From: Parvibaculaceae bacterium
Lineage (GTDB): Bacteria; Pseudomonadota; Alphaproteobacteria; Parvibaculales; Parvibaculaceae
Assembly (NCBI GenBank): GCA_029209985.1
Contig: JARGNZ010000004.1
Span: 1-64,000 of the forward strand
Length of the DNA: 64,000 bases
Reading direction: 5' to 3'
This document shows positions 1,386-13,906 of this stretch, in pieces (position 1 is the stretch's first letter; each line of letters opens with the position of its first letter). Position numbers and translations under genes: made by a program. Under the pieces are notes generated by a model. That model searched no databases. It worked only from the letters and a program-made list of their open reading frames with translations, and was not told where the DNA came from.

Positions 1386-2453
1386 TTAGTGTTTGGGGAA
1401 GGCGCCGCGTGTTCGGTTGGCGAGGGCCACCAATGACAGCATCACTGGTACTTCAACGAGAACCCCAACGACGGTCGCAAGGGCCGCGCCGGAGTTGAGG
1501 CCGAACAAGCCAATAGCCACGGCTACTGCAAGCTCAAAGAAATTAGACGTTCCGATCATTGCGCAAGGAGCGGCAATGTTATGGGGAACCTTCCATGCCC
1601 ATGCGGCGGCATAGGTGAGTGCGAAGATGCCATAAGATTGCAGAATGATGGGAATGGCGATGAGCAGAATCAACACCGGTTGGCTAATGACATTTTGCGC
1701 CTGAAAAGCAAAGAGCAGTACGACCGTCGCCAGTAGACCAAGGATAGAGGTTGGTTTGAGGCGGGCTGTAAACTGATCCACAGCGTCGACGTTGCCCTGA
1801 TGGCTGGCGATCACCCAGCGACGTGTAAGGGCACCCGCCACAAGGGGGATGACGACATAAAGCACGACGGAGAGCAGCAGTGTTTGCCATGGAATGGCAA
1901 TATCGGTGACGCCTAATAGAAGTGCTACGATTGGCGCGAAGGCAACAACCATAATGAGGTCATTAATGGACACTTGCACCAGCGTATAGGCTGCGTCGCC
2001 TTTGGTCATTTGCGACCATACGAAAACCATTGCCGTGCAGGGTGCCGCGCCCAGCAAAATGAGGCCCGCAATATATTGTTGGGCGTCGTCGCCGGAAATG
2101 ATGCCGCTATAGAGGTAGTTGAAGAACAGCACTGCGAGCACGGCCATTGTGAAAGGCTTGATGAGCCAGTTGACGACGATCGTAATGATCAATCCTTTAG
2201 GCTTGCTTCCAATGTGTTTTAAGCTGCTAAAATCAACGGCCACCATCATTGGATAAATCATTGCCCAGATGAGTGCTGCGACAACGAGATTAACCGAAGC
2301 ATATTCCAGCCCGGCGATCAGGTTGAAAATTTCGGGGGCGATATATCCGAGTGCCAGGCCCGCTAAAATAGCGCCCCCGACCCAGACGGATAGCCATTTT
2401 TCAAACAGACCTAGCCCAGAATCTGGAGGGGTTTCGAGTGATTGCGTTGCCAT
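1386..2453 (-). CDS. acr3: Arsenite efflux permease, ACR3 family
   Basis: This 355-residue membrane protein has about ten predicted helices and matches the ACR3 (bile/arsenite/riboflavin transporter) family in length and motifs: [15 protein letters not shown] early, [15 protein letters not shown] with the essential cysteine in the middle, and [14 protein letters not shown] near the C-terminus. It exports As(III) using the proton-motive force. It is the last gene of the minus-strand ars operon, three bases after arsC, so arsenate reduction and arsenite export are coupled. It is unrelated to the E. coli ArsB fold, although it is often called arsB in annotations. Confidence 0.93.
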
Positions 2454-2456
2454 ATT

Positions 2457-2963
2457 TTAGACCTCGGCTTTCTGGGTGCCAATGTCTTTGAGGCTATTTT
2501 GCAAGCTCATCTTATCGATGCTTTCAAGTGGTAATGCGAGGAACAAGCTGATGCGATTGAACAGCATGCGATAAGCCTCGGTGAAGGCCGCGCGTTTTTT
2601 TGCTTCGTTTCCCTCTATGGCTGCTGGGTCTGGTACGCCCCAGTGCGCTGTCATGGGCTGGCCAATCCACACCGGGCAGGTTTCGCCTGCCGCATTGTCG
2701 CAAACGGTGAAAACGAAATCGAGTTTAGGGGCATTGGGTACGGCAAATTCGTCCCAATTTTTAGAGCGCAAACCCTCGATGGGGTGGTCCATCGATTTAA
2801 GCAAATCGAGTGAATAGGGGTGGACCTTGCCCGCCGGGTTGCTGCCCGCGCTGTAGGCATTAAAACGGCCTTTGCCTTCGTGGTTCAAAATTGATTCTGC
2901 CAATATTGACCGGGCTGAGTTGCCGGTACACAGGAAGAGGGCGTTATAAGTGCGGTCGCTCAT
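2457..2963 (-). CDS. arsC: Arsenate reductase, LMW-phosphatase type
   Basis: This 168-residue protein reduces As(V) to As(III) in the cytoplasm for export by the adjacent permease. The low-molecular-weight tyrosine-phosphatase signature is CTGNSARS with nucleophile Cys12, and the acid loop is WGVPDPA. Further cysteines in FTVCDNAAGETCPVW (about residues 85-93) are placed to relay the disulphide, as in thioredoxin-coupled ArsC enzymes. The ATG at 2963 was chosen because it overlaps the upstream lyase stop by four bases (ATGA), indicating translational coupling; a longer reading adds 27 residues with no family counterpart. Confidence 0.93.
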   Translation of the reverse strand: MSDRTYNALFLCTGNSARSILAESILNHEGKGRFNAYSAGSNPAGKVHPYSLDLLKSMDHPIEGLRSKNWDEFAVPNAPKLDFVFTVCDNAAGETCPVWIGQPMTAHWGVPDPAAIEGNEAKKRAAFTEAYRMLFNRISLFLALPLESIDKMSLQNSLKDIGTQKAEV

Positions 2964-3466
2964 GACATGGATGCCTTTGATGGAGTGCAGCAGCTTGTTT
3001 CTGATGCGTTGGGGGAGACAGCTGACAATTCGGGAGTGCAGCAACTTGTTTCAGATGCATTGGAGGAAACGGCAGATAATTCAGGGTCGTCGCCATATAC
3101 GACAGAGTCGCCATTGGTATAGAAGGCTTCCCAAACCACGCCGTCGGGGTCGGAGATCCAGCTCTTTTCAGACTGCGCATAACAGCAGGTGGTCTGCCCT
3201 TCTTCGAGCAAAGGTGCGTCGGCCTTGCGCAGGCGTGTGAAGACTTCTTGCAATCCGTCGGAGCTATCAACTTGAATGCCAAGGTGCTCGATGCCTTTTG
3301 TTGCGTGGTTCTCTGATGAAATAGCAAAATTGACACGCGGGTCATCCAGCATCCACTTTGCGTAGTCGCTTTTCGTGACCGTTGGTGCAGCGCCAAAGAG
3401 AGTAGAATAAAACTCTATTGAGGCGTCGAGGTTTTCTACCCCGACGTGAATGTGCATACGCTTCAT
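2960..3466 (-). CDS. arsI: ArsI-like C-As lyase (VOC fold) with duplicated Cys-Cys tail
   Basis: This 168-residue vicinal-oxygen-chelate protein matches the ArsI/CadI group, whose studied members are Fe(II) dioxygenases that cleave the C-As bond of methylarsenite. Visible elements are HIHVGV (His5/His7), KGIEHLGIQV (His61), a vicinal cysteine pair in QTTCCYA (Cys94-Cys95, the trivalent-arsenical site in the family) and WEAFY (Glu113). Beyond the usual end at about residue 127, a 17-residue unit (PELSAVSxNASETSCCT) is repeated twice, adding Cys142-143 and Cys159-160. It overlaps arsR and arsC by four bases each. A plain cadmium/arsenic-induced glyoxalase-like role cannot be excluded. Confidence 0.85.
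   Translation of the reverse strand: MKRMHIHVGVENLDASIEFYSTLFGAAPTVTKSDYAKWMLDDPRVNFAISSENHATKGIEHLGIQVDSSDGLQEVFTRLRKADAPLLEEGQTTCCYAQSEKSWISDPDGVVWEAFYTNGDSVVYGDDPELSAVSSNASETSCCTPELSAVSPNASETSCCTPSKASMS
2984..3085 (-). repeat. Two 51-bp in-frame repeats in the ArsI-like tail
   Basis: Residues 128-144 and 145-161 of the ArsI-like protein are encoded by two adjacent 51-bp units. They differ only at scattered bases, mostly silent, plus one Ser/Pro change. The silent differences show the duplication is not brand-new and that the peptide, including the Cys-Cys pair, has been kept. Confidence 0.9.
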
Positions 3467-3792
3467 TGGCAGAGCCTTTCAAGTTGATTGGTTATGGGGG
3501 CGCAATCTTCGCCGGAGCAACAATTTTCCAGTAGGAATGCCATGAGGGCGTTCATGGCGCTGAGGTTTGCGCGGTAAATGATGAGGCGGCTTTCCCGCTT
3601 TGAGGAGACAAGGTCTGCCCGGGCCAGTATTGACAGGTGGGAAGACATCGTGTTTTGCGGCACTTCAAGCTGCTTGGCGATTTCACCCGCTGGTAAGCCG
3701 GATGGTTCATGCTGAACTAACAACTTGAATACATCCAAACGAGTGTTTTGTGCGAGCGCGCCGAGGGCTTCTATTGCTTTTAATTTATCCAT
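3463..3792 (-). CDS. arsR: ArsR-type arsenic-responsive repressor
   Basis: This 109-residue winged-helix repressor has the SmtB/ArsR fold (LRLDVFKLL, then recognition helix PQNTMSSHLSILARADLV, then wing KRESRLIIYRA). It lacks the ELCVCDL motif of E. coli ArsR. Instead it has ENCCSGEDC near the C-terminus (Cys91, Cys92, Cys97) and a further Cys at 108, similar in arrangement to the C-terminal As(III) site described for Acidithiobacillus ArsR. It is the first gene of the operon and overlaps the lyase by four bases. An inverted repeat lies over its start region and is the likely operator. Confidence 0.92.
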   Translation of the reverse strand: MDKLKAIEALGALAQNTRLDVFKLLVQHEPSGLPAGEIAKQLEVPQNTMSSHLSILARADLVSSKRESRLIIYRANLSAMNALMAFLLENCCSGEDCAPITNQLERLCQ

Positions 3793-3818
3793 AAATCTAT
3801 AATCGTGGATATATGGAT
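3787..3818 (-). promoter_or_regulatory. Candidate ArsR operator
   Basis: ATCCATA at 3787-3793, overlapping the arsR start codon, is mirrored by TATGGAT at 3812-3818 with an 18-nt spacer; TGGATA is also directly repeated within the right half. AT-rich inverted repeats close to the start are typical ArsR sites, but this exact one is inferred. Confidence 0.4.
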
Positions 3819-4027
3819 ACGAGTCAACTCTAACAGCTCTCCTCCCGTCTTATGGGCTGTTAGTAGAGGCGACCGCCCAGGGCGTGCTCACCCAAAATCG
3901 GCTGGGAGAGGGATGGGGACGTAAGAGAGGGGGGCTGCCAAATTCGTCGTCTGGAAAGCCCGCCGACAAGTCCGCCAGCAAGCCCGTAAGTGGGTTGTTT
4001 TGAGCGAACCGGGGCTGTAAGAATGTT

Positions 4028-4897
4028 GTGCTGCATATGGCGAAGTATATTTTTGACGTAGATTTGAGGATGCAATTGGATAAAGTTGATGAAGGCGCTC
4101 GCTTCCAAGAAGAAGTGCGAGACACGGTTACATCTTATCAAACTGAACCCGAGTGGCGCAAAGTGACCCATGATTGGACTTTGCATGCGTTAGACAAGCG
4201 GTATGTTTATAATTTCTCTTGTCTTGGACGCCCGATCATTCAATTTCCACAGGACATGGTGGCCTTTCAGGAAATTGTCTGGGATGTGAAGCCAGACCTG
4301 ATTATCGAAACGGGTATTGCGCATGGGGGCTCTTTGATACAGAGCGCTTCGGCGCTTGCTATGTTGGAATATTGCGAGGCGATTGAAAAAGGTGAAATGC
4401 TGGATCCGCGCGCACCTAAGCGCCGTGTGATTGGGGTTGATATTGATATTCGCGCCCACAACCGTTCCGCCATTGAAGCCCATCCACTTGCCAATCGCAT
4501 TGATATGATCCAAGGCTCATCGATTGATGCTGATATTGTTGCGCAAGTAAAGAAGGCCGCCGAAGGGTATTCCCGGATTTTGGTTTCTCTCGATAGCAAT
4601 CATACGCATGATCATGTGTTGGCTGAGTTGGAGCATTACGCCCCGATGACGAGCAAGGGCAGTTACTGCTTAGTGTATGATACCGTTGTGGAAGATATGC
4701 CGGTTGACTTCTACCCCAACCGTCCATGGGAACCGGGCAACAGCCCAAAGAGTGCTGTGTTCGCTTATCAAGAGGCGTTGAAGAAAAACCCAATCAATGG
4801 GGATGATGGCACACCGCTATCCTTCCAAAATGATCGCACGGTTGAGGACAAATTGTTCATTACTGTGACGCCTGATGGATTCTTGAAACGAGACTAG
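4028..4897 (+). CDS. CmcI/RhmO-like methyltransferase-fold protein
   Basis: This protein of up to 289 residues resembles the CmcI family (cephalosporin hydroxylase/rhamnosyl O-methyltransferase type). Visible motifs are the SAM-site loop LIIETGIAHGGSL (about residues 90-102), the acidic strand end VIGVDIDIRAHNR, the hairpin QGSSID and the metal/substrate segment LVSLDSNHTHDHVLAELE. Members next to sugar genes are usually O-methyltransferases of polysaccharide or glycolipid sugars. The reading frame opens with GTG at 4028; ATG at 4037 (MAKYIF) is equally plausible and neither has a strong ribosome site. A GT2 gene follows 12-36 bases downstream on the same strand, which supports a glycan role. 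Confidence 0.75.
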   Translation: MLHMAKYIFDVDLRMQLDKVDEGARFQEEVRDTVTSYQTEPEWRKVTHDWTLHALDKRYVYNFSCLGRPIIQFPQDMVAFQEIVWDVKPDLIIETGIAHGGSLIQSASALAMLEYCEAIEKGEMLDPRAPKRRVIGVDIDIRAHNRSAIEAHPLANRIDMIQGSSIDADIVAQVKKAAEGYSRILVSLDSNHTHDHVLAELEHYAPMTSKGSYCLVYDTVVEDMPVDFYPNRPWEPGNSPKSAVFAYQEALKKNPINGDDGTPLSFQNDRTVEDKLFITVTPDGFLKRD

Positions 4898-4933
4898 GGC
4901 GGCGCCCATATGGGTGAGGTGTTGGGGAATGTC

Positions 4934-6175
4934 ATGAAGATTAGTGTTGTGGTGCCCACTCGGAACCGATGCGAATTTCTTAAATATTGCTTGGAAAGCT
5001 GCCTTGTGACCGATGATGCGGGTATCGAGGTTGTGGTGAGCGACAACAATAGCGTTGATGACACCCGTGCGGTTGTGGCGGCGTTTGATGATGACCGTCT
5101 CAAATATGTCAATCCCGGACATGACCTGAGCATGCGGCAGAATTTTGAATTTGCGCTGTCCCATGCGACAGGCGATTACGTCATCTTTATTGGTGATGAT
5201 GATGGTGTGCTGGCCAATGGGTTGGCCACGGTACGGTATTTAATTGAGCGCTATCAGGCCGATGTTATTACATGGCGTCACATCACCTATATTTGGCCTG
5301 CTCAAGAGCCGGTGCCAACCGAGGGGCTGTTGAAGTTTCGTAGCAAGGACTTTTGTGGCCCTCTGGTTGAGTTGGATGCGCCAAAAATTCTTGAAGACTT
5401 TTGCGCGGGTGAAAAAACCAATTATCGCGATGGGGCCAATATTTATCATGGCTGCGTTTCGCGTAAAGTGATCGAAAAAATACAAGCGCATGGGGGAGAG
5501 TATTTTCAGGGACAGATCCCTGATGTGAATACGGCGATCTCAAACCTCACCGTTGCACAACGGTATATGTGGATACGTAATCCCGTGACCATTGCGGGGG
5601 AAGGTTCTAAGAGTAATGGCTCGGCAATGAACTCCACCACGAAGGCATCGCAAAAACAGAAAAATATTGTTCAAAACTTCACCTCTCTTGCAGCGGCAGA
5701 TGCGGTGGAGGCGGAGATTGACTTGCGGGTACGTTCTATCTTTGCTTACACCTATGCCAATTTGGATCGAGTGAACCAATCTTATTTGGATGGTAAGCGT
5801 CAGATCAATCATAGGGTTTGGCGGACACTTATTATTGAGGATATGCAAAAGTTCCCGGTAGAGCACAGGTGTTGGGATGTGGTTGAAGCATTTTTTGAAC
5901 GGATGGACCCGGATTATGATAGGCAAGGCTTGGCTGAGCTGAACCGCGAAAAGGATGCGGCAGATGCCAAGGCAACGCCGGGGCCGGTTTCTTATAAAAA
6001 GAAAAAGAAAAGTCTTATTTCCACGCCGCACCTAACGAATGTGGCGACCGTTGCGGTATGGCTGCAGACTGTGACCGGGGCACCTTATTACCCAACTCTA
6101 AATGTGGGCGGTACATTGCTCAAACAGGCGATGCGAACTGTGGGGATGCGGATGCGGGCCGCGTCGTTAGAATAA
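4934..6175 (+). CDS. Family 2 glycosyltransferase
   Basis: This 413-residue protein begins with the GT2 nucleotide-binding strand ISVVVPTRNRCEFLKYCLES, continues with VVVSDNNSVDDT (first Asp), and has the DxD-type motif FIGDDDGVL at about residues 90-98. No membrane anchor is evident until a basic C-terminal part (KKKKKS at about residue 365) followed by a weakly hydrophobic region. The start at ATG 4934 puts the nucleotide-binding strand at the N-terminus; an ATG at 4910 would add eight residues. It ends 24 bases from the convergent reductase/epimerase gene. Donor and acceptor sugars are unknown; the neighbouring CDP-deoxysugar genes suggest the donor. Confidence 0.85.
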   Translation: MKISVVVPTRNRCEFLKYCLESCLVTDDAGIEVVVSDNNSVDDTRAVVAAFDDDRLKYVNPGHDLSMRQNFEFALSHATGDYVIFIGDDDGVLANGLATVRYLIERYQADVITWRHITYIWPAQEPVPTEGLLKFRSKDFCGPLVELDAPKILEDFCAGEKTNYRDGANIYHGCVSRKVIEKIQAHGGEYFQGQIPDVNTAISNLTVAQRYMWIRNPVTIAGEGSKSNGSAMNSTTKASQKQKNIVQNFTSLAAADAVEAEIDLRVRSIFAYTYANLDRVNQSYLDGKRQINHRVWRTLIIEDMQKFPVEHRCWDVVEAFFERMDPDYDRQGLAELNREKDAADAKATPGPVSYKKKKKSLISTPHLTNVATVAVWLQTVTGAPYYPTLNVGGTLLKQAMRTVGMRMRAASLE

Positions 6176-6199
6176 TGACAGACGTTGGTTGACGGTCGG

Positions 6200-7102
6200 C
6201 TATGAGAAATACGAACTCAGGCCGTCTACCAATGTACGCCGCTGCACTTGAGGGCATATGTCATCGAACCTTTGGGTGCTGCCTTGAACACGGCTGGTGA
6301 TTTTTGTGGTCTCCAGCCGATGTCTGTAGGTTTCTGCTAAGGACATTTTTCCCAATTTTAAACTGACCATTTGCGCGATGTCTAAGGGGGTGACCGCCTT
6401 GCCGGAACAGATGTTGCGCGTGCCGGACACATGTGTGTGGGCGAGGGCGACAAGGGCACATGCCACATCTTGAACGTGGATGAAGTCCACTGCACGGCCG
6501 GGGGTTTGAAACGTAGGCTCATTGCCTGCTTGAATTTCGCGGACGATGTGGGAGATGAGTTTGTTTTCATCTTCATCAGGTCCGTAGGGTAAAAAAATGC
6601 GCCCCCAGATGAGGTTGATGTCCTTGGCGATGACCTTTGCCAGCGTGTGAAATGCGTGTTTAGACGCTGAATAGAGTGTTGTGGGATTTACCGGAGAGCT
6701 GTCTTCGTGAAGGACCTCGTTTTCCCATTTGTATTCAGCGCATGTGCCTGCAAGGACCGCAGTTTCGCCACCGGCTGCAACAAATTGTTGAAGCAGGGTG
6801 CTGCTTGACGAGAGCCATTTGAGATTTTCTTCTGAATGCCAAAACAAACCGGGGGTGGCTTCCCATGCTAAGTGGATGAGCGCATGGGGGCGGTGTTTCT
6901 GTATAAAGGTGCTGACGGCAGCTTGGTCGTGTAGGTCTAGGGGGAGATGTTCTAAGTTTGCATGAGTGGGCAGGCCGCTTGCTGTGCGAGACACGGCGAT
7001 GACGGTTTTGCCTTGTTGCAGAAGCTGAGTGACCACGTGGCTGCCAATAAAACCGGTGGCACCTGTTACCAGAACTTTTTGTTCCGTTCCTTCGTTAGTC
7101 AT
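6200..7102 (-). CDS. Extended SDR: NAD-dependent sugar 4-ketoreductase/epimerase
   Basis: This 300-residue extended short-chain dehydrogenase has the NAD(P) motif VTGATGFIGSHV at the N-terminus, the catalytic Tyr-Lys pair in LYSASKHAFH, and a substrate-side strand RIFLPYGPDED. It is the last gene of the deoxysugar unit. In C-methyl deoxysugar pathways a protein of this kind reduces the 4-keto group after C-methylation and epimerisation, so a CDP-4-keto-sugar reductase is the best inference; a plain 4-epimerase is possible. Its start overlaps the end of the RmlC-like gene by eight bases. The ATG at 7102 was preferred to one six codons upstream because it lies close before the nucleotide-binding strand. 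Confidence 0.82.
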   Translation of the reverse strand: MTNEGTEQKVLVTGATGFIGSHVVTQLLQQGKTVIAVSRTASGLPTHANLEHLPLDLHDQAAVSTFIQKHRPHALIHLAWEATPGLFWHSEENLKWLSSSSTLLQQFVAAGGETAVLAGTCAEYKWENEVLHEDSSPVNPTTLYSASKHAFHTLAKVIAKDINLIWGRIFLPYGPDEDENKLISHIVREIQAGNEPTFQTPGRAVDFIHVQDVACALVALAHTHVSGTRNICSGKAVTPLDIAQMVSLKLGKMSLAETYRHRLETTKITSRVQGSTQRFDDICPQVQRRTLVDGLSSYFS

Positions 7103-7631
7103 GGGGCTTGTACCCCTCAAGCTCTCGGTCTCTTTGTGAAATTACTGCTGGCTGGGCTGGCCATGGAATACCAATGGTTGGGTCATTCCACAAAACACCT
7201 GCGTCATGGCCGGGGGTGAAGGCCGGACCCATTTGATAAAAGACTTCCGTGTCTTCTTCGAGGGTGAGAAAGCCATGGGCGCAGCCAGCGGGGATGAAAA
7301 ACGCCCGGCCATTTTTTCTGCTGAGGTTGAGGCCAACCCATTTTTTATAGGCGGGGGAGTTTTTGCGCAGATCTACAGCGACATCAAAAATGTGCCCGGC
7401 GCTACACCGCACCAATTTGGTTTCCTCAAAAGGGGCTTTATGAAAGTGCATGCCGCGTAGAGTGAGAGCACGGGCATTGTACGAAATATTTGACTGAACG
7501 GGCTGAAAGGGAATGCCATTTTCTTTGAATTCAACCTCACAGAAACTACGTGCAAAATATCCACGGTCGTCCTCATGGCGTTGAGGGTCGACGATAAAGG
7601 CACCGGGAATTTCTGTTTCTTGAAATTTCAT
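7095..7631 (-). CDS. RmlC-like dTDP/CDP-4-keto-sugar 3,5-epimerase
   Basis: This 178-residue cupin matches RmlC/RfbC in length and layout: DDRGYFARSF early, RGMHFHKAPFEETKLVRC in the active-site strand (RG-H signature), the GHIFDVAVDLR strand, FFIPAGCAHGFL, and WNDPTIGIPWP near the end. RmlC epimerises C3 and C5 of 4-keto-6-deoxyhexoses. Since the cluster makes CDP-sugars (rfbF, rfbG), this one probably acts on a CDP-4-keto-6-deoxyhexose, like AscE of the ascarylose route, possibly only at C5 when C3 carries a methyl group. The start overlaps the methyltransferase stop by four bases. Confidence 0.85.
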   Translation of the reverse strand: MKFQETEIPGAFIVDPQRHEDDRGYFARSFCEVEFKENGIPFQPVQSNISYNARALTLRGMHFHKAPFEETKLVRCSAGHIFDVAVDLRKNSPAYKKWVGLNLSRKNGRAFFIPAGCAHGFLTLEEDTEVFYQMGPAFTPGHDAGVLWNDPTIGIPWPAQPAVISQRDRELEGYKPHD

Positions 7632-8866
7632 GACAAGACTTTGACCTCTGGAACAGGTACGACGAATTTCCCTCCCCATTCAGATATAGCTGCCATATCG
7701 GTTGAGATCTCTGTCGCTAAATTCCAAGGCAGAATTAATACGTAATCTGGCTTTTCTTCCCAAATCTTTTCTGGGGCGCAGACGGGAATATGACTGCCGG
7801 GTAAAAGCGTGTTTTGCTTTTCCGGGTTTCGATCAACCACAAAATCAATGCTGTCTGTGTTGATGCCGCAGAAGTTGAGAAGCGTGTTGCCCTTTGCAGC
7901 TGCCCCGTAGCCAGCAACAGACTTGCCGTCCTTTTTTGCCGCGTCTAAGAAAGCGATGAGGGAGGTGCGAATGGCGTCAACTTTAGGTGTAAAGTTTTGG
8001 TACCCTGCGAGCGTATCAAGGGCTGCAGCTTTTTCTTTTGTACGCACATTTTTTAAGCCGGACGTTTCAGCGTGCTTTGTGGAAGCGGTGTGGCATGCAT
8101 AGACGCGGAGCGAGCCGCCATGTGTGCCCAGTTCTTCAACATTGAAAACCTTCAAATTGTGTGCGCTGAGAATAGCCTCAACAGATAGCAATGAGAGGTA
8201 GGAATAGTGTTCGTGATAAATGGTGTCGAACTGTGCTTTCTCAATGAGGTTGAGCAGGTGCGGAAATTCGATGGTCAGTACGCCATCCTCTGCTAACAGA
8301 ATATCAAAACCAGCAATGAAGTCGTTGATGTCGGGTACGTGGGCCATCACATTGTTGGCGGCCATCAAATCTGCTTTGAGCCCTTGGGCCGCGAGGCGGC
8401 GTGCGGTTTCTACGCCAAAGAAAGCCACGTCCGTTTTAACGCCAGCTTTCTCAGCGGCCACGGCCACATTGGCTGCTGGTTCTATACCGAGCACGGGAAT
8501 GTTTTTATCGACAAAATGTTTGAGCAGATACCCGTCGTTGCTGGCAACTTCCATCACCAGTGAATTTTCATCAAGCCCAAGTGCCTTCGTTAATGTCACG
8601 CAATATTGGCGCGCGTGTTCAACCCAGCTTGGGGAGAAAGAAGAGAAATAAGCATAATCGGAAAAGATGTCTTCAGCAGGCACCGCATCTGCCACTTGTA
8701 CGAGTTTACAGTTGCTGCAGACACGCGCATGCAGTGGGTAGGATTTCTCAGATGGGATGTCGGCGGCGCTTTTAAGATAGCTGTTTGCCAATGGCGTTGA
8801 GCCAAGGTCGACAAATGTTTGGGTTAGCTCTTGAGCGCAAAAACGACAAGTCAGGGGAGTGCTCAT
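7628..8866 (-). CDS. Sugar C-methyltransferase (TylC3/EvaC type)
   Basis: This 412-residue protein has the three-part build of deoxysugar C-methyltransferases. There is an N-terminal zinc-binding segment (CRFCAQEL at about residues 8-15 and CSNCKLVQ at 53-60), a central SAM-binding domain (LVMEVASNDGYLLKHF at about 105-120, GIEPAANVA), and a C-terminal domain with VAGYGAAAKGNTLLNF, which carries the putative catalytic region. Characterised members methylate C3 of 4-keto-6-deoxysugars. Placement between rfbG and the epimerase fits methylation of CDP-4-keto-6-deoxyglucose or its 3-deoxy form. It overlaps both neighbours by four bases. Confidence 0.87.
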   Translation of the reverse strand: MSTPLTCRFCAQELTQTFVDLGSTPLANSYLKSAADIPSEKSYPLHARVCSNCKLVQVADAVPAEDIFSDYAYFSSFSPSWVEHARQYCVTLTKALGLDENSLVMEVASNDGYLLKHFVDKNIPVLGIEPAANVAVAAEKAGVKTDVAFFGVETARRLAAQGLKADLMAANNVMAHVPDINDFIAGFDILLAEDGVLTIEFPHLLNLIEKAQFDTIYHEHYSYLSLLSVEAILSAHNLKVFNVEELGTHGGSLRVYACHTASTKHAETSGLKNVRTKEKAAALDTLAGYQNFTPKVDAIRTSLIAFLDAAKKDGKSVAGYGAAAKGNTLLNFCGINTDSIDFVVDRNPEKQNTLLPGSHIPVCAPEKIWEEKPDYVLILPWNLATEISTDMAAISEWGGKFVVPVPEVKVLS

Positions 8867-9936
8867 GTATTTGCCTCATATTCTGCAATTTGCGCTAATG
8901 TATAGGCGTGCATGTTTTCGCCGTCACTAAAGGCTTTGTACCATGCAACCGTTTTTTCCAAAGTTTGTTCTGCATTCCACCGTGCCTGCCATCCAAGCGA
9001 TGTTTCAGCAAGGCTTGCGTTTAAGGCGAGAAAAGCTTTTTCAGCAGGCTGCTGGGTGTCGGTTAAACCCCAATCCGCTTCAATACCAAAGGCTTGTTGG
9101 ACTTCCTGTGCAATGTGTCCAACGGTGAGTGCTTCATTCTTGGCGGGGCCGAAATTGAGAGCTCGTGGCAGAGCAGCTGGTTGTTGGGTGAGGGCTTGTA
9201 AATACGTTAAATATCCGGACACAGATTCTAGAACATGTTGCCAAGGACGTGTGGATTGCGGATAGCGCAATGTCACTGGTTGGCCGTTACGTGCGGCGCG
9301 CCAAATGTCTGGGATCAACCGATCTTCTGAAAAGTCGCCGCCGCCGATGACATTGCCTGCACGAGCGGTTGCGATGGCCGCGTTACTTTCCTGGAATAGG
9401 CTTTTGGCGAGAGACGTCGTTGCAATTTCACACACCGCTTTGGACGATGAATAGGGATCATCGCCGCCAAGGGCGTCGGTTTCAACGAAGGCGGTGCCCG
9501 TTTCGTTGTTTTGATATACTTTGTCGCTGGTGATGATGAGGGCGGCTGAAAGATTTTTCAAACCAGCAAGGCTGGTGAGCAGATTGACCGTACCCATCAC
9601 ATTTGTTTCGTAGGTGCCAATGGGGTCCCGGTAGGAGCGGCGCACCAAAGCTTGAGCGGCCATGTGTAGCACAACTTCCGGGTCGCATTTTTTGATGGCA
9701 GCATCCAAAGCATCCGCGTTTCTGATGTCGATGATTTGGGAGCTGGTCGAAAGGTTGTGTTTTAGCGTTTCAAAAAGCGAGAACTCGCCTTCTGGCTCGA
9801 GTGATATGCCGGTTACATGTGCGCCCATCTTATCGAGCCAAAGAGCTGTCCATGCGCCTTTGAAGCCCGTGTGCCCTGTGAGCAGGACACGGCGGCCTTT
9901 CCAAAATGCGGGGGTGACTTGGCTGGATATCAGCAT
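8863..9936 (-). CDS. rfbG: CDP-glucose 4,6-dehydratase
   Basis: This 357-residue extended SDR has the family length. The NAD motif is LLTGHTGFKGAW, typical of RfbG. The catalytic region includes IITSDKVYQN (with the Thr-Ser-Asp-Lys pattern of 4,6-dehydratases) and PYSSSKAVCE (Tyr-xxx-Lys). It converts CDP-D-glucose to CDP-4-keto-6-deoxy-D-glucose, using NAD as a recycled cofactor. ATG 9936 is the proper start: it lies seven bases after the rfbF stop, and the longer open frame runs back into rfbF in another phase. The product is the branch point for the downstream methyltransferase and epimerase. Confidence 0.93.
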   Translation of the reverse strand: MLISSQVTPAFWKGRRVLLTGHTGFKGAWTALWLDKMGAHVTGISLEPEGEFSLFETLKHNLSTSSQIIDIRNADALDAAIKKCDPEVVLHMAAQALVRRSYRDPIGTYETNVMGTVNLLTSLAGLKNLSAALIITSDKVYQNNETGTAFVETDALGGDDPYSSSKAVCEIATTSLAKSLFQESNAAIATARAGNVIGGGDFSEDRLIPDIWRAARNGQPVTLRYPQSTRPWQHVLESVSGYLTYLQALTQQPAALPRALNFGPAKNEALTVGHIAQEVQQAFGIEADWGLTDTQQPAEKAFLALNASLAETSLGWQARWNAEQTLEKTVAWYKAFSDGENMHAYTLAQIAEYEANT

Positions 9937-9943
9937 GTTTTTC

Positions 9944-10717
9944 TCATGACCAAAGACACCATGGGGCGTTGCCGCTTTCCCAAAGTTCTTCGAGAAGGTT
10001 CTTTTCGCGCAATGTATCCATAGGTTGCCAGAAGCCCGTGTGGCGGAAGGCAGATAATTGTTTGTCCCGCGCCAGAGACGCCAGTGGACCCGTTTCCCAC
10101 ACTGTTTTATCTCCTTCAATTCTGGAGAGCACAGAAGGTTCTAGTACAAAAAAGCCCCCGTTGATGAGTCCATTGTCACCTGCAGGCTTTTCGATGAAAT
10201 CTGTGACTTGGTTGTCTTTGATAACAGTTGCCCCAAAACGACCGGGAGGGGCCACGGCTGTTAGGGTCGCCTCCCGGTTTTCCGCTTTATGGAACGCGAT
10301 CAGCTCGGTGATGTTGACGTCAGACACGCCGTCGCCGTAGGTCATGCAAAATGTTTCATCTGGATCGAGGTAGGAGGCAACACGTTTAAGGCGCCCACCC
10401 GTCATGGTGTCGTCGCCGGTTTCAACCAAGGTGACACGCCAAGGTTCTGCTTTTGCCCGATGATAGATGACTTCATTTGTTTCTAGGTCAAAGGTCACGT
10501 CAGAGCGGTGCAAGAAGTAATTCGCAAAATATTCTTTGATGACGTAGCTGCGGTAGCCGAGGCAGACAACAAAATCGGTGATGCCGTGGTGGGCGTATAT
10601 CTTCATGATATGCCACAAGATCGGACGATCCCCAATTTCGATCATTGGCTTTGGGCGTAAGTGCGATTCTTCAGAAATACGCGTTCCCAAGCCGCCGGCT
10701 AAAATTACAGCTTTCAA
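9944..10717 (-). CDS. rfbF: Glucose-1-phosphate cytidylyltransferase
   Basis: This 257-residue protein has the nucleotidyltransferase signature [32 protein letters not shown] in its first 35 residues (positions 2-33; key residues are the Gly-Gly-Leu-Gly-Thr-Arg loop and the Lys of RPKPM). It also has [11 protein letters not shown] for metal and CTP, and NGGFFVLEP for the sugar. It makes CDP-glucose from CTP and glucose-1-phosphate, the entry step to CDP-deoxysugars. The start is TTG at 10717, preceded by GAGGGA at a normal distance. About 170 bases without a gene separate it from the upstream GT25 gene. Confidence 0.93.
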
Positions 10718-10884
10718 GGTCGTTCCCTCGTCAATTGGATGGGGCGATCATTCACCATGGTGCCCGCTTTCGTCGATTTTGAGTGTCTTGCTTATTTCAA
10801 GTACGACTACCTGTGTCAAGGAGGCCTCTGGATTGCTGACTTTGAGGGTAAACTTGGAAGGCGGGCGGACGGGAAGCCTATGCT

Positions 10885-11697
10885 TTAGGTGTATTTGGCG
10901 CTTTTGCGTATATCGCGGACTTTTGTGCGGGCAAAATGGCGGCGTTTAGATAGGCCGCTGGTGAGTTTATACCACAGGCGGAAAAACTTATATTTGAACT
11001 TGGTGAGCGGAGAAGCCTTAAAGCTTTTATCAAACCGATCATCCCCAATGGTCGAGGGCACGTCAAAGTCTGCGACAATGGGGGAGGGCTTGGTTAGAAA
11101 TATATCTAGGCCCGTATCCCAGCACCGGCCAAAGAGGGCGTCGATGGGGAGCCAATTCTTTTCGGTATGCTCAACAATCACTTCGGCTGCGTGGCGGGTC
11201 AGTAAATAGCCGTAGGCTCCGCCGGGGGTGGCAAGCACGCTGGTCAGTTCATAATTTGGTGTTAGGGGGCCGATGATGCGATGGGGCCCTTTGAAAACCT
11301 TTTCCCAATTTACAAATCGGATCATGTCCCATTCTCTGTCACCGTTTAATAGGCTGGTGAGGACATCTGGTAAGTCTGGGGCAAGGAAGGTGTCATCTTC
11401 GAGAACCAACACGAGGGGAATGTCCTCTGCCACCATCTTTTGGGCGATGCCGCGATGAGAGAGAAGACAGCCAATTTCGCCGGGACTTAAATCACGCCCA
11501 AAAAACCGCCGTCTTTTTACACCGTCATATTCAGGGGCTTTGAGGGTGTCAAAGGTGTGGCCGTCAACCGCAGAGAAAAACTCATGGGAGAGGCCAATCG
11601 CATTGAGGCGTTCGGTCATCGCCGCGCGACGTTCAACGTCTTTTTCACGGTTAATGACGAGGATGCGGATTTGGTCGGCAATTTCATTTTTTGACAT
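10885..11697 (-). CDS. Family 25 glycosyltransferase
   Basis: This 270-residue cytoplasmic transferase has the GT25 pattern: IRILVINREKDVERRAAM at the N-terminus, the DLSPGEIGCLLSHRG core (about residues 70-84), and the acidic metal motif LVLVLEDDTFLAPDL. GT25 includes LPS beta-1,4-galactosyltransferases such as LgtB and Lex1. The C-terminal tail is basic (KFKYKFFRLWYK, SKRRHFARTKVRD), consistent with membrane-surface association. It sits between the ATP-grasp gene (54 bases upstream) and rfbF, so it probably extends the same surface glycan. The sugar transferred is unknown. Confidence 0.87.
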   Translation of the reverse strand: MSKNEIADQIRILVINREKDVERRAAMTERLNAIGLSHEFFSAVDGHTFDTLKAPEYDGVKRRRFFGRDLSPGEIGCLLSHRGIAQKMVAEDIPLVLVLEDDTFLAPDLPDVLTSLLNGDREWDMIRFVNWEKVFKGPHRIIGPLTPNYELTSVLATPGGAYGYLLTRHAAEVIVEHTEKNWLPIDALFGRCWDTGLDIFLTKPSPIVADFDVPSTIGDDRFDKSFKASPLTKFKYKFFRLWYKLTSGLSKRRHFARTKVRDIRKSAKYT

Positions 11698-11751
11698 GGA
11701 ATATTATTATCGCTTGGGACGCGGGCCGCGCAAGCCCAAAGACGGATTAGA

Positions 11752-13578
11752 TCATTGTAAGGGCGCGAGCAGGGCTGTCACCTCATTGATGCGCGGGAAG
11801 GGGTCGGTTGTTGATGCTAGGTGGAGGGTTGCTTTATCGATCGGCAGCCCCGTTTCTAAAACATCCGCATTTTGCACAACAAGTATCAGTGCCTCTACAG
11901 TATTCTCAAGCAGCAGGGCTTTTGTCCTGCGGGCGAGAGATTTAAAGGGGTAGGGGCGGAGTGCCTGTTCATCATCGAGTGTTTCTGCGTGGCTGGTGAG
12001 ATAGGCTTGTTGGCCATTTTTATGTAGATTCTTTTGATGTTCTTTGGCTTGGGCCATGGCGCTGTCGCCGCCCACATAGATGTCGACCGGGATGCGTCCA
12101 TCTTCTTCAATGATGCGGCTGAGGTAGGTTTGCAGGTGGCTTCTGGATATTTCGCCACCGCCCAACAATGGGGCGTAATTGATTTCATTTATGATGGCCC
12201 CATTCTCGACCCAAGGCTTCGCGATATCTTCGGAGAGAATGTCGATGCCGGCATTGGATAGTCCGGCGAGTTTTGCGGCTTGGAGGGCAATGCGCAAATT
12301 TTCCGGGTGCACTTGGTGGGTGACCTCAATGTCGTACCCGCCGGAGAGAGTGGATTCAATTTCCCGCAGATGGATGAGCTCCCCTTTGGCGGGGATCGTT
12401 TCCAAGGTGTGCCCCGCCCGGTTGATTTGCTGTAGGGCCTCCTCGTCCAGCTTGCAAAGCGGCTCGCGACGCCAAGGGGGCGTGCTGAGGGTTATTTGAT
12501 TGGCTGTTTCTGCAAGGGCGCGGACAGAGTTTTGACCGTCTCCGATGATCGATTTTGGACAGCGTTTGACAGCATATAGAAGCTCGCCGTTGGAAATGAA
12601 GATGCGGTGGCAGGTGCCGCTGACTTGCTCTTCAATCAGCACTTGCTTGCCGGGGCTGACTTTGAGGGCATCTTGGAATGCTCTTTCTAGGCCCGCGTTA
12701 TTGGTGATGTTGATATGGACGCCTTCGCCGCGTTCTGCATCTGCCGGTTTGACCACGAGGGGCCAGCCGATGGTTTGGGCCGCTTTTTTGGCGCTTTCTA
12801 GAGTTGTGCTGTTGATGTGTTTAGCAGCGGGCAGACCTGCGTCGGCGAGCACTTTGGCGGTTAATCGTTTGCTGTTTGAGATGACGCTGGCCATTGCGGA
12901 ATCAGCCCCGACAGAGCTGCGATCTATTTGAACGGCTTTGCAGCCCCAACCGATTTGATACATGGCCCCAGCACGATGAATGAAGGGGATGTTATTCTCA
13001 TGGGCTGTGCGCAACACCGCTTGAGTGGACGTGCCGCGTGCTGCTTGTTTGGCTATGGGCAGGATTATTTTATTATTGAAGTGTTGATACTCCGCTTGCC
13101 GGTTTTGTGGTGTTAACGGGGTTTTGCTCATGCGGCCAGCGGCAAGCAGGGCTTCTTTATAGATTGCGTAAAGCTGAGCTGGGGTGATGACGTCTATATA
13201 GGGGGGTCTGATTTTGGCTTCATAGTCAGCGGATTGGGAGGTTTCATCTGCGTTGGTGGGTTGGAGACGGGCGAGGTTTGAAAGTTCTGCTAGGTCAAAA
13301 AGGGGAATACGTCCGCCGTCAACGAGTGCTTGGGCGAAAGCCAGTGCGCGGTTGATGAATGCGCGTGGCCCCTTGAGAGCGGCGTCTTCGTCTTTTGGAT
13401 CAGGCACGAGAAGCTGTGCTGTGTCGAGTTGATAGGCTTGCTCTAGCCATTGATCCAAATTGTTCAGGTCGCCTATGAGCGTGGCGGCAAATTTGAATGA
13501 GAATGTCAGTTTCGGTGTGCCCAAACCGATGGCCCCACGAAGTTTAGTTGTTTCTGGGGCGTTTCGTGTTTGGCTCAT
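11752..13578 (-). CDS. Cyanophycin-synthetase-like ATP-grasp ligase without Mur domain
   Basis: This 608-residue protein resembles the N-terminal and ATP-grasp parts of cyanophycin synthetase. MYQIGWGCKAVQID (about residues 206-219) corresponds to the family's LGxG element, followed by the SNSKRLTAKVLADAGLP lid, the nucleotide strand PLVVKPADAERGEGVHI (273-289), QVLIEEQVSGTCHRI (312-326), YAVKR, and the metal motif INEINYAP near 480. There is no Mur-ligase domain after it; the last 110 residues are unlike CphA. The reaction should be ATP-dependent amide or ester formation on a carboxylate, but the substrates are unknown. It is the first gene of the minus-strand glycan unit, so modifying a sugar acid or a precursor with an amino acid is a reasonable guess. 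Confidence 0.7.
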   Translation of the reverse strand: MSQTRNAPETTKLRGAIGLGTPKLTFSFKFAATLIGDLNNLDQWLEQAYQLDTAQLLVPDPKDEDAALKGPRAFINRALAFAQALVDGGRIPLFDLAELSNLARLQPTNADETSQSADYEAKIRPPYIDVITPAQLYAIYKEALLAAGRMSKTPLTPQNRQAEYQHFNNKIILPIAKQAARGTSTQAVLRTAHENNIPFIHRAGAMYQIGWGCKAVQIDRSSVGADSAMASVISNSKRLTAKVLADAGLPAAKHINSTTLESAKKAAQTIGWPLVVKPADAERGEGVHINITNNAGLERAFQDALKVSPGKQVLIEEQVSGTCHRIFISNGELLYAVKRCPKSIIGDGQNSVRALAETANQITLSTPPWRREPLCKLDEEALQQINRAGHTLETIPAKGELIHLREIESTLSGGYDIEVTHQVHPENLRIALQAAKLAGLSNAGIDILSEDIAKPWVENGAIINEINYAPLLGGGEISRSHLQTYLSRIIEEDGRIPVDIYVGGDSAMAQAKEHQKNLHKNGQQAYLTSHAETLDDEQALRPYPFKSLARRTKALLLENTVEALILVVQNADVLETGLPIDKATLHLASTTDPFPRINEVTALLAPLQ

Positions 13579-13906
13579 TGAGTGCTCGTCTTGATTGGGG
13601 CGCGGTGGCAGGTGGTGTTTTTTGAAACCTTATCGCACTTTGTCGAAAATGCACGGTTCAACTTTGAGATGTGTGCTGAAATATGGCTCTCCCCTTAATG
13701 TTTGTGGGGTGCCAAGCTGTTTTATAGGCAGAGCGTGTATCTGCTTATTTTTACAGCACGGGTTTGAGGCGTATTGTGGCTAATGCGGGCGAACTTGGGC
13801 CGATACGGTGCTTTGGGGTTGTTATGGGGACGGGAATTCATTTTTCTATTCCTAAGGGCTGTTGTGAAGGGTAGGTTCCGCCAAATCTTTTATTAGGAGC
13901 AGCCGC
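13579..13906. other. Divergent intergenic region, no gene seen
   Basis: These 328 bases separate the ATP-grasp gene (minus) from the SulP gene (plus) and must hold both promoters. I see no coding region, no strong inverted repeat and no clear sigma-70 pair that I would defend. The only clear site is the ribosome-binding AGGAG at 13895-13899. Confidence 0.5.

Follow-up and report, generated by a model that had tools for sequence, protein, structure and literature searches.

What does a ligase of the cyanophycin-synthetase type make when it lacks most of its Mur-ligase half and lies beside glycan genes? The products known from the CphA group are cyanophycin and small protective peptides. The question arises from one gene in a 64,000-nucleotide stretch of a Parvibaculaceae genome (hereafter the window), for which an earlier note had proposed, as a possibility, the attachment of an amino acid or similar group to a sugar acid or lipid precursor. 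The explanation that we favour, with a probability of roughly 0.45, is that the protein belongs to a clade of CphA-like enzymes with a single active site and is an amide ligase working with a GT25 glycosyltransferase, probably for a surface-glycan building block, or for a small amide that GT25 would glycosylate.

An open frame on the minus strand

The ORF check of the window gives a 608-aa open frame from 13578 to 11752, and the plus-strand translation of the same interval is riddled with stops. The gene is the first past a divergent SulP-type transporter gene. Its orthologue is known from two species, both as draft assemblies: the window genome and a sister species, G001 (public record NVSO02000047, a Rhodobiaceae MAG). 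Both have the SulP start upstream of the ligase; the sequence upstream of the ligase shows no conservation between them.

The two ligases are 71% identical, with dN 0.18 and dS 1.64 (dN/dS about 0.11). Third-position changes exceed those at positions 1 and 2 in all three parts of the protein, and the ATP-grasp (G) domain is 80% identical. This pattern indicates that the ligase gene is real, working and under purifying selection over its entire length, in agreement with the coding gene first proposed here; its strand is minus.

A CphA-like protein with a decayed Mur domain

Residues 172-584 match cyanophycin synthetase, the best family match (NCBIfam PRK14016, E 1.4e-68), at 231.9 bits against a family cut-off of 877. 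Sequence search of the PDB returned CphA1 (7lgm, 168 bits, E 2e-48) and CphA2 (8fxh, 123 bits; 7ta5, 121 bits); profile search returned CphA1 (7wac, 233 bits, E 4.8e-68) and CphA2 (8fxh, 198 bits). Profile-profile comparison with CphA by hhalign covers residues 72-586 (E 4.5e-60), spanning the N domain, the G domain and the start of M. A multiple alignment with cousins and full-length CphA1 resolves an N domain, an ATP-grasp domain and the first third of a Mur-ligase domain (Table 1), with MYQIGWG (residues 206-212) aligned to the -QxG-G- element of CphA. The CphA-like first half and ATP-grasp region of the earlier note, with their IGWG element and ATP-grasp motifs, are thus recovered, except for the first ~70 residues, whose likeness to CphA is poor. 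A structure model built from two sequences reached a mean pLDDT of 34 and was discarded.

The Mur half had been described as missing and followed by about 110 unfamiliar residues. Its ATP loop is indeed lost: GTNGKT is GGDSAM in the window ligase, and profile alignments running from the CphA N domain to residue ~586 pair RIPVDIYVGGDSAMAQ with RIPIAAITGTNGKTTT at the former Mur P-loop. The tail, on the other hand, is the first third of the Mur domain; the same alignments pair ALILVVQNADVLETGLPID with AVLESARGGLLRRGLGYE in this remnant. Because they continue to residue ~586, we consider the Mur domain truncated and decayed, not replaced.

Table 1. Features of the ligase, of its neighbourhood and of two related loci. 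Positions refer to the window unless a locus is named.
Feature	Position	Strand	Basis
CphA-like ATP-grasp amide ligase (putative), 608 aa, Mur-truncated	11752..13578	-	frame, profile and PDB matches; intact in G001 (L002), 71% identity
N-terminal part, residues 1-171, CphA N-domain-like from about residue 72, without HxxEH	13066..13578	-	hhalign
ATP-grasp (G) domain, residues 172-475	12154..13065	-	PDB matches, alignment
Truncated, decayed Mur-ligase domain, residues 476-608, without GTNGKT ATP loop	11755..12153	-	profile alignments
G-domain phosphate loop KPADAERGEGVH, residues 277-288; CphA1 His267 = Arg283	12715..12750	-	alignment
EINYAPLLGGGEIS, residues 465-478; Mg ligands E465/N467 kept; CphA1 Arg458 = Gly473	12145..12186	-	alignment
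GT25 glycosyltransferase, 270 aa, 54 nt downstream of ligase	10885..11697	-	Pfam PF01755, E 2.7e-26; partner conserved
rfbF, glucose-1-phosphate cytidylyltransferase	9944..10717	-	TIGR02623, 453.8 bits, cut-off 300
rfbG, CDP-glucose 4,6-dehydratase	8863..10119	-	TIGR02622, 430.9 bits, cut-off 278
C-methyltransferase, RmlC-type 3,5-epimerase, NAD-dependent epimerase/reductase	6200..8866	-	family matches
RiPP-like triad, G431	L059 7518-10562	minus	
RiPP-like triad, G894	L087 8036-11252	plus	

The catalytic residues are kept and the substrate residues are not

The features of an ATP-grasp carboxylate-amine ligase (two lysines, Mg-binding D/E/N, substrate arginines) are all present. The alignment keeps the ATP-grasp ligands K237, K277, R325, R339, D446, E465 and N467, the first six of which are K220, K261, R309, R323, D431 and E450 of CphA1 (numbering and roles from PMC9427784). 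An ATP-dependent joining of a carboxylate to an amine would follow from the family and these kept residues.

In CphA1, the catalytic His267 helps the acyl phosphate, Glu215 binds the Arg side chain of cyanophycin and Arg458 recognises aspartate (PMC9427784). His267 and Arg458 are substituted here (Table 1), and the Glu215 column holds Val232, with no Glu. The N-domain Cx19HxxEH is the primer-making site of CphA1 (PMC9262961); HxxEH is absent from the stretch that hhalign aligned with CphA. Because the cyanophycin- and aspartate-binding residues are replaced, the substrates would be other than those of CphA1: acyl phosphate and amide formation should persist, but cyanophycin and aspartate should no longer be the reactants.

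A separate clade of CphA-like ligases

Among 1,776 genomes, we found 12 further proteins sharing the signatures KP-D--RGEGV, LR-I-[ST] and NE[VI]N--P--GG. Together with the window protein they form a 13-member clade, apart from the CphA1 proteins in the tree (support 100/100), whose members are spread across Pseudomonadota in several families. Arg occupies the His267 position in 13/13 members and the Mur loop is found in 0/13, while CphA K220, K261, R309, R323, D431, E450 and N452 are kept in all members long enough to score. The nearest relatives outside the clade are other Mur-truncated CphA-like proteins. Scans of genome contigs by peptide pattern recovered the sister species and one remote ATP-grasp protein, nothing else, and the CphA-type proteins of a plasmid collection are all distant (<34% identity).

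The clade is apparently an undescribed branch of the cyanophycin-synthetase family, and its members probably ligate amino acids to a partner that is not cyanophycin. Our literature search returned no paper joining CphA-type ligases with GT25, LPS or HExxH RiPPs; an amidoligase survey lay outside this search, and earlier notice of the clade is possible. The signature KP-D--RGEGV / LR-IEST / NEVN-P-LGGGEIS of the clade lets such genes be recognised, which so far match cyanophycin-synthetase models alone, far under the cut-off.

GT25 is the conserved partner of the ligase in two species

Of 40 genomes from the order, the ligase and GT25 genes occur together in two, and neither occurs in any of the others. 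They are separated by 48 nt in G001, against 54 nt in the window, and the GT25 proteins are about 92-93% identical, with dN/dS about 0.03 against about 0.11 for the ligase. At similar synonymous divergence, GT25 (L002 2161-2973 in the sister species) is far more conserved than the 71%-identical ligase.

The DNA of G001 diverges right after GT25 and carries no rfbF there, so the connection between GT25 and the CDP-sugar genes is not preserved. The unit proposed earlier, headed by the ligase and leading through GT25 to these genes, is reduced accordingly: GT25 follows the ligase in 2/2 species of the genus, and rfbF does not follow GT25 in G001. The evolutionarily kept unit is the ligase with GT25; the CDP-glucose genes of the window are possible further members of it. 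Scanning for promoters and terminators did not decide whether GT25 and rfbF share one transcript. No sugar-acid gene was seen near the ligase/GT25 pair.

As for these sugar genes themselves, 6200-10717 of the minus strand is a CDP-glucose-derived sugar cluster, and 4028-6175 of the plus strand holds an O-methyltransferase-like gene and a GT2; together they probably serve a branched methylated surface sugar. The true rfbG start is probably further in, since the TIGR02622 match begins at residue 72 of the frame.

A model for the reaction

In the reading that we favour, ATP would be bound between the two halves of the ATP-grasp domain, and the ligase would phosphorylate a carboxylate held by R325. 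An amine would then attack the acyl phosphate to give the amide, with R339 holding a second carboxylate by analogy with CphA1. As the Mur half is cut back to a structural remnant, neither a second ligation nor cyanophycin is expected. The ligase is probably co-expressed with GT25 in this genus, and the two would most likely decorate a building block of the surface glycan with an amino acid or small peptide in amide linkage. Alternatively, the ligase may build a small amide that GT25 glycosylates. Of the attachment first suggested for this gene, the association with glycosyltransferases is partly supported, by the GT25 pair and by two relatives (G1428 and G1370, below); nothing identifies the substrate as a sugar acid or lipid.

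Gene neighbours across the clade

A glycosyltransferase adjoins the ligase in 3 of about 11 independent loci of the clade, for which the chance probability is 0.001 to 0.015 with an assumed, not measured, background adjacency rate of 2-5%. In G1428, the homologue opens a series of four glycosyltransferases, with a 4-nt overlap between it and the next gene. In G1370, it is fused behind an AMP-binding domain and flanked by a GT4 and a sugar epimerase, with a DUF6492 gene next. Other homologues are found after a porin gene (G802), beside a PKHD-type dioxygenase (G437) and amid housekeeping genes (G1426 and the second copy of G894). The earlier note held that random neighbours in other genomes would speak against a glycan role. 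Glycosyltransferases do recur, in G1428 and G1370, but most other relatives keep company with AMP-forming ligases, a second ATP-grasp, a peptide beta-hydroxylase, a porin or housekeeping genes: the linkage is recurrent but not general in the clade.

The AMP-forming enzymes bear on the most serious alternative, which we nevertheless judge somewhat unlikely: the product may be a soluble pseudopeptide or acyl-amino acid of specialised metabolism, glycosylated by GT25, with the surface-sugar genes a coincidence. Three clade members are linked to AMP-forming (acyl-activating) enzymes. In G1370 and G726 the two are one protein; the G726 fusion (PF00501, E 8.8e-48) has a TPP enzyme and a second CphA-like ATP-grasp as its neighbours. 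In G1107, the AMP-forming enzyme, the ligase and a second ATP-grasp are three adjacent genes. Linkage between ATP-grasp ligases is an accepted indication that peptides are ligated step by step (PMC4431377), and the absence of CDP-sugar genes after GT25 in G001 also suits a soluble product. Against it, no AMP-forming enzyme or second ligase is seen beside the window gene, and most of what is known of GT25 enzymes concerns LPS synthesis, as their Pfam name has it.

The module of AMP-forming enzyme and ligase thus recurs at L057 (G726, 8258-13761, minus), L089 (G1107, 4997-10365, plus) and L099 (G1370, 1509-4829, plus). Its second CphA-like ATP-grasp, in G726 and G1107, differs from the clade ligase.

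Two further relatives suggest a role on ribosomal peptides, in which the ligase would add an amino acid to the C terminus of the peptide or close an amide ring. In G431 and G894, a small peptide gene comes after the ligase, and behind it a gene for an aKG-HExxH peptide beta-hydroxylase (TIGR04267, 75-76 bits against a cut-off of 40). The peptides, of 43 aa or of ~77 aa with two repeats, have in common the motif K/N-L-F/Y-G-F/Y ... S-x-K-I/L-G-x-K. A RiPP role is likely for these two ligases, which probably modify peptides in this way; for the window ligase we find it improbable. Its genome has no HExxH enzyme over the cut-off (best sub-threshold match 11 bits) and no related peptide gene (the best hit, at E 0.27, falls within a long frame), the sequence upstream of the ligase is unconserved, and the G431 and G894 proteins belong to another sub-branch of the clade. 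A precursor-peptide model built from the G431 and G894 sequences matched these same sequences strongly and revealed no cognate peptide gene elsewhere in the genomes of the clade members and G1427.

It is very unlikely that the window ligase is a CphA2, polymerising beta-Asp-Arg. The domain anatomy (N, G, shortened M) and the length are alike (608 aa against 629-642 aa in 7ta5 and 8fxh), but the sequence match favours CphA1 (168 bits) over CphA2 (121-123 bits), and His267, Glu215 and Arg458 are replaced. The window genome (99.8% complete) has no CphA1, with one CphA-like gene alone at E 1e-5, and CphA2 is described as cyanobacterial (PMC9262961). An inactive, decaying CphA, to which the truncated Mur domain and lost ATP loop might point, is scarcely credible and was set aside on purifying selection (dN/dS near 0.11, 80% identity of the G domain across the two species), with every ATP-grasp ligand kept and the same truncation across several families of the clade.

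A broader proposal, which we regard as doubtful, is that the whole clade left storage-polymer synthesis to become a general-purpose aminoacyl or peptidyl ligase, acting on surface glycans with glycosyltransferases in this genus, G1428 and G1370, alongside AMP-forming enzymes in small-molecule pathways in G726 and G1107, and in G431 and G894, together with HExxH hydroxylases, on ribosomal peptides. If true, the ribosomal-peptide branch would be a RiPP class built by the cyanophycin-synthetase fold. With its altered substrate residues and such neighbours, the clade provides well-defined candidates for amide chemistry that would be new: glycans decorated with amino acids and, possibly, a family of RiPP ligases.

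CphA-like ligases also cluster in other settings. In G009 (same family), two adjacent ones of about 600 aa overlap a nucleotidyltransferase gene (L061 7588-12158, minus) read by eye as GalU/galU, with a ManC-like gene, likewise read by eye, nearby; this setting counts in favour of the glycan reading. A pair in G894 (L088 1269-19000) clusters with sulfotransferases, glycosyltransferases and TIGR03032, and a pair in G1427 (L102/L103) with sulfotransferases, glycosyltransferases, rml sugar genes and a type I secretion set; both lie beside a giant repeat protein.

Comparison with known systems

The earlier note had taken the attachment role that it proposed to be undescribed for this family. Mur-truncated CphA relatives as such are known already in CphA2; in the literature searched, we found no CphA-type ligase assigned to amino-acid-decorated glycans. 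CphA2 (7ta5, 8fxh/8fxi) resembles the window ligase in its N domain, single ATP-grasp site, truncated Mur domain and lack of Cx19HxxEH, and the G009 cousin aligns with 8fxh over residues 151-576 of the latter, Mur remnant included. The window ligase differs in scoring lower against CphA2 than against CphA1, in its proteobacterial host and in its place beside GT25.

With CphA1 (7lgm, 7wac, 7lg5) it has in common the N and G domains and the residues K220, K261, R309, R323, D431 and E450. Identity with CphA1 is ruled out by the missing GTNGKT Mur ATP loop, His267, Glu215, Arg458 and HxxEH, and by a score of 232 bits against 877. N-acetylglutaminylglutamine synthetase (TIGR03103), a CphA-like ATP-grasp making a small peptide, was rejected likewise (115.3 bits, curated cut-off 569).

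The architecture of the window ligase is shared by Mur-truncated CphA relatives of another clade, found in distant bacteria (G077, L062; G970, L090; G1427, L102) and grouping next to the clade of the window ligase in the tree (branch support 95/72). These differ in having Gly at the His267 position, another motif replacing LR-IEST, and an adjoining gene of one SAM methyltransferase family. Graspetide and other RiPP ATP-grasp ligases (MvdC/D type, pheganomycin ligase) share the ATP-grasp amide chemistry, and two clade members adjoin a peptide gene and an HExxH hydroxylase; however, the graspetide and other RiPP ligases are of another ATP-grasp family, whereas the window ligase, in a locus without a peptide gene, is of the CphA type of about 600 aa.
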